From contig JAOTWB010000009.1 of NCBI GenBank assembly GCA_029863125.1, positions 1 through 64,000 of the forward strand: 64,000 nucleotides of DNA, given 5' to 3'. Under the pieces are notes generated by a model. It was not told where the DNA came from and ran no database searches. It saw only the letters and a list, made by a program, of their open reading frames with translations. The translations under genes were made by a program, and so were the position numbers. The stretch comes from Gammaproteobacteria bacterium (lineage in GTDB: Bacteria; Pseudomonadota; Gammaproteobacteria; Steroidobacterales; Woeseiaceae). Of this stretch, positions 8,720 to 42,081 are shown in pieces (positions within the stretch are counted from its first letter, which is position 1; each line of letters starts with the position of its first letter).

Positions 8720-9565
8720 TCACTTTTCTGCAATAGCTTCTGCTTCCAGAGCCTGATGTTCTTCCTGGCGCCACTCGAACACGTTGAGCTCGATAAAAAC
8801 GAAGGCGACGAGCCACAGGAAGGCATCCCAGAAGTCGACGAAGTCACCTTTCAGGCCCCAGTAGATGGCTGCCAGGAGCAGCAGGGAATACAGCACGAAC
8901 TTGGCTATCGTGCTTAGGCGGAGCGCCAGTCCTTCGAATCGGTCTTTTTCCTGCAGGCGCACGTCGGTCTCGAGCAACATCACGACGAGCAGCCAGACTC
9001 CGGCGTTGATAACGTCTACCCAGGCGAGGTAGCGAATGTTCGTCAGTCCCTCGGCATCAACGACGGCCATCATGTCTCTGAACCGGTAAAAAACTGACGC
9101 GTCAGAAACGGCGGCACAATTGGCGGCGGTCAGTTCCACATACTCATCCAGAGTCACGGCCCAGGACCACCGATCGGCCAGCAGCGCGCAAACGTCTGTA
9201 ACGCCTGGAAGCATCGTTGTTTCATAGTGAAACGTCAGGTTCGCGATATACCCGTAAAACGCATACACAATAAATGCGTAACACAATACGCGCAGGCCAT
9301 GCAGGTTCCGGGTAACGCCTTTCGTAAACTGCTCATCATCAAGTACATAGGTTTCCAGCTCGAACATGAGCAGCAGGACGACCCAGGCCGCCGTGTCGAT
9401 CGTGGCCGAGTATGCCTCGATGAGGTCGGTGAAATCGATGCCGTTGGCAAACTGCAGCGCGGCCGCCGACGATTCCTCGGCGTAGAACCAGTAGATATTC
9501 ATCACCAACAGCACGTAGACCGTGTACTTGAAGGCCTGGAACAACCGGCTCCTGTTAATCGTCAA
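8720..9565 (-). CDS. Multi-pass membrane protein with a repeated helix motif
   Basis: The protein has 281 residues. Hydrophobic segments lie at about 12-28, 58-70, 92-110, 187-200, 222-238 and 247-262. Three of them share a pattern in which a Trp-initiated hydrophobic stretch ends in Glu plus a small acidic/polar cluster: WVVLLLMFELET at 61-72, WLLVVMLLETDV at 191-202 and WLVAFVFIELNV at 251-262. A large loop at about 111-180 is rich in Asp and has two Cys. The two halves may descend from a duplication. No family is recognised and no function can be given. It is transcribed alone, minus strand, next to fic. Confidence 0.7.
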   Translation of the reverse strand: MTINRSRLFQAFKYTVYVLLVMNIYWFYAEESSAAALQFANGIDFTDLIEAYSATIDTAAWVVLLLMFELETYVLDDEQFTKGVTRNLHGLRVLCYAFIVYAFYGYIANLTFHYETTMLPGVTDVCALLADRWSWAVTLDEYVELTAANCAAVSDASVFYRFRDMMAVVDAEGLTNIRYLAWVDVINAGVWLLVVMLLETDVRLQEKDRFEGLALRLSTIAKFVLYSLLLLAAIYWGLKGDFVDFWDAFLWLVAFVFIELNVFEWRQEEHQALEAEAIAEK

Positions 9566-9646: not shown

Positions 9647-10801
9647 CTAGCCACTATCCTGAGATCGTCTGTTGCGTTTGTCGTCGCCTTCGGAATAATA
9701 AACCCAGACGTTTTCCTCGCCGGTTAGTAGCTCGATGTATTTGGGGTGCACGAAAATATTCTCTCGCCCGGATTTGACTTCCCGAAGCACGCCGATTTCG
9801 CACAGCCGTTTCAGGTACATGGACGCCGTTTGTCGTTTCGCGATTCCGGCATCGACGAGATTACCTATGCGACAGTAAGGTTGTCGGAACAGGAGTTCGA
9901 CGAATTCCCGGGAATAGATCTTCGGTAGCTGTGTCTGGACGTACTTAGCCGTGTGATCCATGAGTTCGCGGATCGACTTGATCTTGTCGGTGGTCCATGT
10001 ACAGGTTTCTTCGACACCCTCGAGCACAAACATGATCCACGCGGCCCAGTCCTGGTCCGTCGTAACCTTTTGCAATAATCGGTAGTACGCGGCTTTGTTC
10101 TGGATGATGTAGCGGCTCAGGTAAAGAATCGGTGAGTCGAGTAGTCCGAGCTGCACCAGAAAAAGGATATTCAGAATGCGGCCTGTACGGCCGTTGCCGT
10201 CGGCGAACGGGTGGATCGCTTCGAACTGGTAGTGCTGAACCGCCATGCGGACGAGCGGATCGAATTCGGTGCTTCGATGCATGAACTCCGCCCAGTTATC
10301 CAGTTTCCGAATCAGCAGCTTTTGGCCGACCGGGGGCGTGTAAACAACCTCTCCCGACAGGCGACTTTTCAGCGTCGTGCCGGTTTCCGCACGAATGTCG
10401 AGCTCCATTCCCTTTACCGTGCTGCAAATCTGTATCGCCATGTCGGTAGTCAGCATGCCGCGCTGAACCATCTTGGTGCCCTCATAGAGGGCTGTGCGGT
10501 AGCGCAAGGCCTCCTTGGTCGCGGCGTCGGCGCGGTCTTCGGCAATATCGGCGAATTCGAACAGTTTGTCGGTGGTCGTGACGATGTTCTCGATCTCCGA
10601 GCTCGCCCTGGCTTCGAGCAACGGCAGGGCGTTGACCAGTACCGCGGAATTCGGAATGAGCTCGGCCGCCTGCTTCAGCTCCGCCAGGGACACGCGGGCG
10701 TTGATGCAGCGTTTCAGTATGGCTGTCGATTCAATACGATCCGCAGGCGGGGGCAGCTCCGGGAGCTCGTTGTAGGGCAAAGATGGATTAAAATCAGTCA
10801 C
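9647..10801 (-). CDS. Fic family protein with inhibitory N-terminal motif and C-terminal winged helix
   Basis: This is a 384-residue Fic protein. The catalytic motif HPFADGNGRTGR lies at 197-208, matching the consensus for AMP transfer to a target hydroxyl. Near the N-terminus, S67-S-E-I-E71-N72 fits the (S/T)xxxE(G/N) inhibitory helix, so the enzyme is probably class II, self-inhibited and possibly also a deAMPylase. The last 90 residues (IGNLVDAGIAKRQTASMYL and following) look like a winged helix, which suggests DNA binding. The promoter side of the gene holds an array of inverted repeats, so autoregulation is likely. The cellular target is unknown. Confidence 0.9.
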   Translation of the reverse strand: MTDFNPSLPYNELPELPPPADRIESTAILKRCINARVSLAELKQAAELIPNSAVLVNALPLLEARASSEIENIVTTTDKLFEFADIAEDRADAATKEALRYRTALYEGTKMVQRGMLTTDMAIQICSTVKGMELDIRAETGTTLKSRLSGEVVYTPPVGQKLLIRKLDNWAEFMHRSTEFDPLVRMAVQHYQFEAIHPFADGNGRTGRILNILFLVQLGLLDSPILYLSRYIIQNKAAYYRLLQKVTTDQDWAAWIMFVLEGVEETCTWTTDKIKSIRELMDHTAKYVQTQLPKIYSREFVELLFRQPYCRIGNLVDAGIAKRQTASMYLKRLCEIGVLREVKSGRENIFVHPKYIELLTGEENVWVYYSEGDDKRNRRSQDSG

Positions 10802-10840
10802 TTATAACTAATCTCGCTGCTGGGCTTCCTGGCGATGAAA

Positions 10841-10986
10841 TCGACATATCGCTAGAATATGTCGAAATAAAAGCATTTTATCGACATATTTTCGCCGTGT
10901 GTCGATGGCGTCGACCTCTTTCCATAATATGTCGAAATTCCGATTATTTTTCGACAGGATTGCAGTATAGGTCGATTGGATCGACA
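10841..10986. promoter_or_regulatory. Cluster of inverted TCGACATAT/ATATGTCGA sites between fic and fhs
   Basis: TCGACATAT occurs at 10841-10849 and 10881-10889, and its complement ATATGTCGA at 10857-10865 and 10927-10935. Weaker copies follow: TCGACA at 10951-10956, GTCGA/TCGAC arms at 10901-10915 and GTCGAT-TGG-ATCGAC at 10971-10985. Two of the pairs have the same 15-base spacing (10865 to 10881 and 10935 to 10951). The cluster covers the common upstream region of the divergent fic and fhs genes and is more AT-rich than its surroundings. It is best read as a multi-site operator. The Fic winged helix is the obvious candidate binder. Confidence 0.6.
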
Positions 10987-11055
10987 CGTTCGTGATCCAG
11001 GTATCACTACGCAGGCAGGGCCGCTGCATAGGGACAATCCACGACCCCCGGACAG

Positions 11056-11070
11056 CCCCCCGCAGGGGGG
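11056..11070 (+). promoter_or_regulatory. GC hairpin in the presumed fhs leader
   Basis: CCCCCC at 11056-11061 and GGGGGG at 11065-11070 are separated by three bases and followed by TTTGCTAT. The hairpin would be very stable. It sits 51 bases before the fhs start with no plus-strand gene upstream for it to terminate. It could be a leader attenuator or simply a structured 5' end. The T-run is too short to call a strong terminator. Confidence 0.35.
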
Positions 11071-11121
11071 TTTGCTATAGAATTCGCAGCGACCCGGATA
11101 GCGTAGCCAAGAGGACGAACT

Positions 11122-12798
11122 GTGACCGTAAAAAGCGACATTGAAATTGCCCGGTCGGCGAAAGTCAGGCCGATCCAGGAGATCGCCAGGAAGATTGGCA
11201 TTCCGGCAGACGCGCTCATCCCCTACGGTCATGATAAAGCGAAAATCAGCGCAAATTTCATTAACGCACAGAGCCAGTCTCAGGATGGAAAACTGGTCCT
11301 GGTTACAGCGGTATCACCGACGCCGGCGGGTGAGGGCAAGACGACGACGACTGTCGGTCTGGGGGATGCGCTCAACAAGCTCGGCAAGAATGCGATCATA
11401 TGCCTCCGCGAGCCGAGTCTCGGCCCCTGTTTCGGCATGAAAGGCGGCGCCGCCGGCGGCGGCTATGCCCAGGTTGTTCCGATGGCCGACATCAACCTGC
11501 ACTTCACCGGCGACTTTCACGCGATTGGTGCCGCCAACAACCTTCTGGCCGCGATGATCGATAACCATATGCATTGGGACAACGAGCTGGATATCGATCC
11601 CCGGCGCGTTACCTGGCGGCGCGTGGTAGACATGAACGACCGGGTACTCAGATCCATAACCTCCGGTCTCGGCGGGTATCACAATGGCGTTGTTCGCGAA
11701 GCGGGATTCGACATTACAGTCGCATCGGAAATCATGGCGATTTTTTGCCTGGCGACGGACCTCAAGGACCTGGAAAACAGGTTGGGTAATATTGTGCTCG
11801 GTTACACCCGCGTCAACGAGCCGGTTACTGTTCGGGAGCTCAACGCACAGGGAGCCATGACGGCGCTGCTGCGCGACGCCTTCCAGCCAAATCTCGTACA
11901 GACCATGGAGAACAATCCCGCGCTGATGCACGGTGGCCCGTTCGCAAACATTGCGCACGGCTGCAATTCTGTCATCGCGACAACGACGGCTTTAAAACTT
12001 GCCGATTACGTGGTGACGGAAGCTGGATTCGGCGCCGACCTCGGCGCCGAGAAATTCTTTAACATCAAGTGCCGCAAAGCACGCCTTTCGCCCGACGCCG
12101 TCGTGCTGGTTGCAACAATCAAGGCACTCAAGATGCAGGGCGGTGTGGCGAAGACGGACCTCGCCGCCGAAAACGCCGAAGCACTGCAAATTGGCTGCAA
12201 AAACCTCGCGCGTCATATTCGCAACCTCGGCAAGTTTGGCGTTCCGATAACGGTCGCTGTCAATCGCTACACGGCCGATACCGATGCGGAAATTCAGATT
12301 GTTCACGATTTTTGCGGCAAGTACGGCGTGCGTGCCATCATCTGCACCCATTGGGCGGACGGTGGTGCCGGTGCCGTCGAACTGGCCGAGCACGTCTCTG
12401 AGCTTTGCGAAAGCGCTGCTGCGCAGTTTCGCACGCTGTACGACGACGACCAGTCGCTGTGGGACAAGACCGCCACGATCGCGAAGGAAATCTATGGCGC
12501 CGACGACATCATCGCGGACAAGAAAGTGCGTGCGGAGTTTGCGAGACTGCAGAGCGAAGGTCGGGGCAGGTACCCGATCTGTATGGCCAAGACGCAGTTC
12601 AGTTTTTCGACCGACCCGAACCTTTTGGGTGCGCCGTCCGGGCACCACGTGCCGATTCGGGAAATCAGGCTTGCCGCCGGCGCCGAATTCCTGGTCGTGG
12701 TGTGCGGTGAGATCATGACGATGCCGGGATTGCCGCGAGTCCCGGCCGCGAACGCCATTCGCGTCAACGACCAGGGCCAAATCGAAGGGCTGTTCTAA
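11122..12798 (+). CDS. fhs: Formate-tetrahydrofolate ligase
   Basis: Fhs joins formate to tetrahydrofolate with ATP, giving 10-formyl-THF for purine and one-carbon metabolism. The 558-residue protein has the family P-loop [14 protein letters not shown] at 67-80 and characteristic segments such as [31 protein letters not shown] and [13 protein letters not shown]. The length is normal. It starts at GTG with GAGGA at 11111-11115 as ribosome site. It is a single-gene unit, divergent from fic, and is preceded by the repeat cluster and GC hairpin. Confidence 0.97.
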
Positions 12799-12839: not shown

Positions 12840-13094
12840 TCATGATTCACTTTCGATGAGACGGTGGCTATCGCTCGCCGCCAACTGGCAGCCGTAGACG
12901 TCCTTTAGCCTTTCTATGACTGCCCGTGTTTCCGACGAGAAGGGCGACTTGCCTTCGAAGGCATGCAGAACGATGCCCTCGAGCAGGTCACCAAGAGTCA
13001 GGTCGGTGTATTCGGCAAGACCCTTGAGTACTTTGAGCAAAGAGGATTCGATGCGCACACCGGTTTGCGTGCGTTTTACTAGCGTTGTTGGCAT
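12840..13094 (-). CDS. Small ribbon-helix-helix-like protein
   Basis: The protein has 84 residues. The N-terminal TLVKRTQTGVRIESSLLKVLKGLAE pattern, a basic strand followed by two helices, resembles a ribbon-helix-helix DNA-binding fold. The C-terminal half (EGKSPFSSETRAVIERLKDVYG) recurs in small conserved hypotheticals of this shape. No toxin gene adjoins it, so it is not an evident antitoxin. An inverted repeat just upstream (13116-13137) may be its operator. The DNA-binding role is inference from pattern only. Confidence 0.6.
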   Translation of the reverse strand: MPTTLVKRTQTGVRIESSLLKVLKGLAEYTDLTLGDLLEGIVLHAFEGKSPFSSETRAVIERLKDVYGCQLAASDSHRLIESES

Positions 13095-42006: not shown

Positions 42007-42081
42007 GGGGCGTTAGCTCAGAGGTAGAGCATTCGGCTTTTAACCGACTGGTCGTAGGTTCGATCCCTACACGCCCCACCA
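42007..42081 (+). tRNA. tRNA-Lys (anticodon TTT)
   Basis: The 75-base cloverleaf has acceptor arms GGGGCGT/ACGCCCC, D-arm with AGCTCAGAGGTAGAGC, anticodon loop CTTTTAA with TTT at 42039-42041, T-arm GTAGG-TTCGATC-CCTAC, and an encoded CCA at 42079-42081. The D-loop is one base shorter than in E. coli tRNA-Lys. The base pair at the bottom of the anticodon stem (42032/42048) is T opposite C, a mismatch where relatives have G-T. It lies between cpoB and thrA. Confidence 0.95.

Follow-up and report, generated by a model that had tools for sequence, protein, structure and literature searches.

The fic gene and the repeats upstream of it

The window, i.e., the whole stretch of 64,000 nucleotides that has been analysed, carries on its minus strand a fic gene (9647-10801) encoding a protein adenylyltransferase of 384 amino acids, which has been assigned to the SoFic type by Pfam, NCBIfam, PADLOC and PDB comparisons. 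Three Pfam domains (Fic_N, Fic and SoFic-like_C) score over their cutoffs, and the protein matches the NCBIfam equivalog NF046030 with 583.8 bits (cutoff 550), PADLOC SoFic with 395 bits and the SoFic chains in the PDB, including 3eqx, with E ∼1e-140. Fic proteins are characterized by the Fic motif HxFx(D/E)GNGRxxR, and the N-terminal inhibitory motif has the form (S/T)xxxE(G/N). In the window protein the two are present as HPFADGNGRTGR and SSEIEN, and both have been found invariant in 10 aligned sequences, save one variable residue of HPFADGNGRTGR. The C-terminal winged helix ascribed to the protein in the initial annotation is borne out by the SoFic-like_C domain, in which the recognition-helix stretch GIAKRQTASMYLK is located. 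By family, the product is a SoFic-type AMPylator of the phage-defence kind, with predicted activity. Downstream of fic, a membrane-like protein of 281 amino acids (8720-9565, minus strand) shows no Pfam or NCBIfam match, and 35 of the 65 orthologous loci have a relative that begins 1.1-1.3 kb past the fic start. The fhs gene (11122-12798) is divergent from fic and is followed by an 84-residue protein (12840-13094, minus strand) of no matching family, a similar one being seen by eye beside fhs in locus L192. Between the repeats described below and fhs, a strong GC hairpin, CCCCCCGCAGGGGGG then TTTGCTATAGAAT (11056-11070, plus strand), has been classified as terminator-like by a scan.

Upstream of fic, an array of inverted half-sites with the consensus TCGACAYRT (10830-10986, minus strand) runs from a -10-like box nearly to the fic start codon, covering promoter and leader on a lattice of 19, 21, 19 and 11 bp with a superperiod of 70 bp. 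The exact nine-base forms TCGACATAT and ATATGTCGA occur at 10841, 10857 (minus strand), 10881 and 10927 (minus strand), i.e., within 10841-10935, and at no other place in the 64 kb. When one mismatch at most is allowed, 17 matches have been counted window-wide vs 10.2 expected, so that the clustering and spacing are remarkable rather than the total number. Seven exact TCGACA/TGTCGA hexamers fall into 10841-10986, and elsewhere in the window no stretch of 170 bp holds more than three. Two weaker half-sites, TCGACC at 10970-10975 and GGTCGA at 10911-10916 (minus-strand reading), lie where the lattice predicts them. Read on the minus strand and marked '>' for TCGACA and '<' for TGTCGA, the half-sites start at -185<, -174> (TCGACC), -155<, -134>, -115< (GGTCGA), -104>, -85<, -64> and -45< relative to the GTG start, with steps of 19, 21, 19, 11, 19, 21 and 19 bp from -174 onward.

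The palindrome closest to the fic start, TCGACATAT-N7-ATATGTCGA (10841-10865), is followed outward by TCGACA-N13-TGTCGA (10881-10905) and by two palindromes with one weak arm each, at 10911-10935 (TCGACC...TGTCGA on the plus strand) and at 10951-10975, the latter including the -10-like box. The half-site at 10981-10986 (minus strand) is the right half of a further upstream palindrome, whose left half is absent in the window and present in some relatives, e.g., in L011; at the other end, a one-mismatch site at 10830-10835 is the final member. Divergent half-sites are separated by AT-rich spacers of 15 bp at 10866-10880 and 10936-10950. What had been described initially, namely at least four nine-base half-sites in 146 bases, several weaker ones and two identical 15-base spacings, is therefore correct and understated, as the order of 19, 21, 19 and 11 bp had been missed.

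The -10-like hexamer of the presumed fic promoter, TATACT (10964-10969, minus strand), is overlapped by the inverted repeats. A sigma-70 consensus scan of 10600-11200 has returned no promoter, and a good -35 element is absent at TATACT, so that the box owes its assignment to conservation, being present in 63 of 65 orthologous loci.

Conservation of the lattice and its half-site variants

For the comparison, fic genes have been grouped by Fic protein identity into A (≥65%), B (50-64%) and C (<50%), with limits of our own choice. Group A comprises the window and 64 relatives, i.e., 65 distinct loci with 67-100% protein identity after removal of duplicate upstream regions; loci with less than 330 bp upstream (L027, L030, L033, L163, L171, L173) and one with an unmatched N-terminus (L132) have been dropped before counting, and L040 and L041 duplicate L031 and L032. 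In line with a check that had been proposed, the upstream regions have been compared, and the array has been found in all 65 loci with shared lattice spacing and a mean of 9.45 exact half-sites per 330 bp (range 6-18). Control flank windows (n = 706) contain 0.375 on average, with six windows holding at least three (maximum 7), some of which may be array beyond the 330 bp, and mononucleotide shuffles (n = 3250) contain 0.139 (maximum 3). Convergent neighbours are spaced by 19 bp in 189 of 205 cases and divergent neighbours by 21 bp in 147 and by 11 bp in 63 of 230, and the distances between half-sites of the same orientation peak at 30, 40, 70, 100, 110 and 140 bp.

Between species, identity amounts to 88% in the two half-sites free to vary and to 45% in the spacers, as determined for the 59 of 65 loci fitting the anchor pattern (6 did not fit); the half-site value rises to 92% if the half-site required by the pattern is counted. 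At the free positions, TCGACA is exact in 58 and TGTCGA in 29 of these 59 loci. The lattice spacing has thus been maintained while the intervening DNA has diverged. In 58 of the 63 loci with TATACT, the distance from its first base to that of the next TGTCGA is exactly 13 bp, and a median of 8 exact half-sites lie between TATACT and the start codon. The most extended case in the group, the Woeseiaceae-type locus L109, consists of 4.6 copies of a 70-bp unit with 90% matches and reaches 18 half-sites per 330 bp.

At the genome level, the paired motif is confined to this locus at up to three mismatches in its own draft genome (2.49 Mb, 74% complete), which answers the search for further copies that had been called for. 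In a survey of this genome and 59 relatives, 26 relatives carry a near fic orthologue, two of them ending at a contig end without upstream DNA, and the pattern of three half-sites occurs in all 24 relatives with near orthologue and upstream DNA as well as in the own genome. It also occurs in 6 of 33 relatives without near orthologue, giving 31 of 60 genomes overall; among those six, G055 alone combines the N15 and N5 spacings, G024, G029 and G033 show the N5 spacing alone, and the others are off lattice. The reversed control pattern occurs once in the whole set. Among 398 genomes drawn from the phylum, including the own one, five are positive, namely the own genome, G416 (with a fic at 56% identity), G280 (an orphan) and two off lattice. 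Lattice-like orphan arrays have been located in L193 (2763-2819) and L194 (2584-2619), near which tblastn has given no convincing fic remnant (best E 0.47). The L193 array sits upstream of two genes resembling hipB and hipA. In genome G002, the end of contig 26 (L192) bears a second array of the fic type, and the terminal bases there match fic residues 1-11.

Outside group A, at least three TCGACA half-sites have been found in 14 of the 19 group B loci. Judged by eye, the arrays of L136, L138, L145 and L150 are compact, with TTGAC(A/G) as -35-like and a -10-like hexamer placed in two palindromes 5 bp apart immediately before the start codon, and fic genes on alphaproteobacterial plasmids follow the same lattice order, often with one weak arm. 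On four such plasmids (L196, L197, L200, L205), fic and a recombinase gene have 4 bp in common, and repC is next in three of the four. Of 5426 complete E. coli genomes, 278 carry a fic gene 60-80% DNA-identical to that of Cedecea. The Fic of E. coli SE15 scores 799.7 bits against the solved chain PDB 9vjc, which is, we presume, EcSofic, in an alignment spanning 358 of 358 residues. By TRF, the region upstream of SE15 fic holds 7.4 copies of a 70-bp unit with 73% matches, ending 70 bp before the start codon, and TGTCGA stands opposite TAAACA across 15 bp. Strain AVS0456 encodes the identical protein (WP_001104341.1) and is shorter between the same genes than SE15 by 140 bp, exactly two units; among 40 E. 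coli records listed, the span here is 661 rather than 801 bases in three.

None of the 26 group C loci has three or more TCGACA half-sites, and the exact inverted pair TGTnnn-N15-nnnACA has been found in nine of them (eight with TGTATA, one with TGTTAA), against an average of 0.02 over 200 mononucleotide shuffles. Near the start of five distant Fic genes (L038, L039, L040, L041, L156), other palindromic words are repeated by eye, among them TAGTAAA, GCGATCGC, CTAAG-AAGGA and GGCAG.

Under the assumption of an ACA core and lattice spacings, a half-site has been assigned to 114 of 125 fic genes, leaving 11 without one. TCGACA is used by 92 genes, 88 of which show the helix x(I/V/L)A(K/Q/R)RQ(T/A/S)AS; 65 of the 92 belong to group A and are hence closely related. 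TATACA is assigned to 12 genes, all with V(S/A/T)R(L/I/M)TA, TTAACA or CTAACA to five, all with V(S/T)RQTA, GCGACA to four, three of them with IAQRQAAS, and TAAACA to one. This last gene, L135, is an exception with its helix IAKRQTASK, as are E. coli and Cedecea with hybrid TCGACA/TAAACA arrays and VAKRQTAS, L209 (IAQRQAAS with TCGACA), L199 (IAKRQAAS with GCGACA), L153, which is scored TCGACA even though CCATAT sites are visible, and L154, in which no array has been seen next to IAKRQTAS. In these raw counts, to which shared ancestry may contribute, the half-site type appears to track the Fic recognition helix largely. The most economical reading would be that the winged helix reads the half-site and that a fixed protein geometry sets the gap of 15 bp.

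Proposed autorepression and known Fic regulators

Based on the conservation of the lattice, the shared N15 geometry and the half-site that largely follows the helix, binding and repression of the fic promoter by Fic itself are very probable, and the array would be a multi-site operator of the adjacent SoFic-type gene, occupied by Fic dimers. A Fic protein binding its own promoter had been suggested initially; the suggestion has gained comparative evidence, with the lattice in 65/65 loci and the association of helix and half-site, from which we infer the binding itself. Mechanistically, Fic dimers would contact inverted half-sites via their C-terminal winged helices, and the divergent TGTCGA-N15-TCGACA pair is the most likely basic dimer site. 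Such dimers could pack side by side over the -10 box and the leader and would then shut off fic transcription cooperatively. The purpose might be to hold a leaky, self-toxic AMPylator at a very low level until infection or stress disturbs the complex. Counting against autorepression are the promoter of the window, at which no -35 is recognisable, the diverged Fic genes, of which just 9/26 have the exact N15 pair, the lattice-like arrays of L193 and L194, for which a fic is not detectable, and, as regards the link of helix and half-site, the exceptions listed above and the close kinship of the 65 group A genes among the 92 that use TCGACA.

Autorepression by a Fic protein is already known, and what would be new is that the phage-defence family of SoFic has multiple operators arranged in a phased array. 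The nearest case found in the open-licence PMC literature, which has yielded no report of an operator array at SoFic-type genes, is CccR of Yersinia pseudotuberculosis, which likewise has been described to combine a Fic domain with a C-terminal DNA-binding domain (PMC9755527). CccR has been shown experimentally to be an autorepressor with inverted repeats near the -35 and -10 elements of its own gene, whereas binding in the window is predicted. Its operator has been reported to differ in half-site sequence and to consist of a single inverted pair of 10 bp, spaced by 26 bp, in contrast to the N13/N15/N5 spacings and the 70-bp lattice seen here, and a single palindrome with a 26-bp spacer is absent from the window array. 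Furthermore, CccR is described as a secreted effector with a reported identity of 29% at 45% coverage to SO_4266 (PMC9755527).

SoFic and EcSofic (3eqx, 3zcn, 9vjc; PMC12249575) belong to the same family by the NCBIfam equivalog and PADLOC, and an E. coli member of the family shares the lattice with the window array. EcSofic has been reported to be self-toxic when leaky, with a toxicity that needs the dimer and the C-terminal domain and is countered by the 47-residue AS1 protein; an operator array or DNA binding is not described in the pertinent passages of that paper (PMC12249575). In the corresponding passages of a 2023 paper, DNA binding of SoFic is given as not demonstrated, and our literature search has found neither a reported DNA target for the winged-helix tail of SoFic-type proteins nor binding or expression data for them. 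CbFic2 of Coxiella burnetii has been described as a class II Fic with a C-terminal HTH whose activity is altered by DNA binding; it acts on a host histone, and random DNA has been used, with no specific site reported in the parts of the paper concerned (PMC10628234). The arrangement also resembles the autoregulators of AbiE and Xre-type toxin-antitoxin systems as generally described, in which a toxin locus is repressed via inverted operators. There, however, an antitoxin or partner binds, whereas in the window the enzyme itself carries the DNA-binding domain.

The 2025 EcSofic paper treats it as an open question how phage-defence toxins of the SoFic type are silenced and triggered (PMC12249575). 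The array supplies the exact target DNA with its geometry, length variants in E. coli and natural variants of specificity, which makes the role of the Fic tail directly testable, and the array family as a whole provides naturally occurring pairs of recognition helix and half-site.

Alternative readings of the array

In addition to an operator, the array may serve as a DNA store that holds many Fic dimers inactive, from which host DNA damage or loss of the complex during infection would free the toxin; we consider this rather unlikely. More sites are present than a repressor seems to need, as exemplified by the 18 half-sites per 330 bp in L109 and the 7.4 units of 70 bp in E. coli, and the array length may differ by whole units. 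In EcSofic, contact between the C-terminal domain and the AMPylase has been reported to control toxicity, with the trigger stated as open (PMC12249575), and the Coxiella Fic is described as stimulated by DNA, with a proposed switch from AMPylation to deAMPylation (PMC10628234). Taken together, the surplus of half-sites, the expansion in complete units and the link between tail and catalysis would be compatible with inactive toxin being stored on the array. On the other hand, the toxic and regulatory activities of CccR have been reported as independent (PMC9755527), the DNA effect in Coxiella has been obtained with random DNA (PMC10628234), and a measured effect of DNA on any SoFic has not been found in the literature. 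A more specific version, which we likewise regard as doubtful, would make the array a DNA antitoxin, on which Fic dimers that repress their own gene are stored while inactive or deAMPylating, with the stored dose set by how many 70-bp units there are, until a phage attacks host DNA or transcription and thereby sets the toxin free. If true, it would account both for the tolerance of a defence toxin encoded by one gene and for its triggering.

It is very improbable that another regulator binds the array, as might be read from the arrays of L193 and L194 that fit the lattice without a detectable fic. Across families, changes of the half-site accompany the recognition helix of Fic itself, the array decays upon loss of fic, and the same array accompanies fic in E. 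coli as well as on plasmids of alphaproteobacteria, despite different neighbours.

Even less probable is a control of fhs by the array, which had been put forward initially as a tie between AMP transfer and folate metabolism and which has not withstood the comparison. The gene is divergent from fic and within 600 bp of it in the window and in 22 of the 65 group A loci in all, about 1.5-1.9 kb off in eight, and not found in 35 (upstream DNA reaches 1.4 kb or more in 27 of these and falls short of it in 8). The array is nonetheless present in the 43 loci where no adjacent fhs has been detected, the upstream DNA being short in 8, so that it goes with fic regardless of fhs adjacency, and the -10-like box and the lattice are positioned by the fic start. 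When 10 fhs loci from 12 same-genus genomes without a near fic have been searched over 638-1497 bp upstream of fhs, none has shown a lattice pair, and an fhs operator or folate regulator site has been rejected on this ground. In six of these 10 loci, the downstream neighbour of fic (8720-9565 in the window) still stands beside fhs. Upstream of fhs in L217 (genome G001), a fic pseudogene with fragments of residues 1-30 and 299-320 has kept two half-sites 30 bp apart, and L213 has kept a single relic half-site; judging from these remains, the array disappears along with fic.

That the palindromes form RNA hairpins of the fic leader for attenuation or translation control is scarcely credible. The -10-like box precedes most of the window array, which would therefore be transcribed, but no excess of Watson-Crick pairing between the arms has been observed at 13 inner positions of 198 N13 and 163 N15 palindromes, and the reading has been rejected by this test, in which 11 of the 13 positions are below the shuffled mean and the lowest P is 0.34, with the fixed half-site letters lying outside it. 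Rfam finds only a tRNA in the window (at 42007), and the E. coli array is mostly far upstream of the start codon, the promoter position there being not mapped.

A plain tandem repeat, the regular spacing of which would result from recent duplication, has a probability close to nil. Some arrays do grow by 70-bp duplication, as in L109 (4.6 copies at 90%) and E. coli, yet the half-sites and their spacing hold where the spacers are 44% (N15) and the palindrome interiors 42% (N13) identical inside one locus and the spacers 45% between species.
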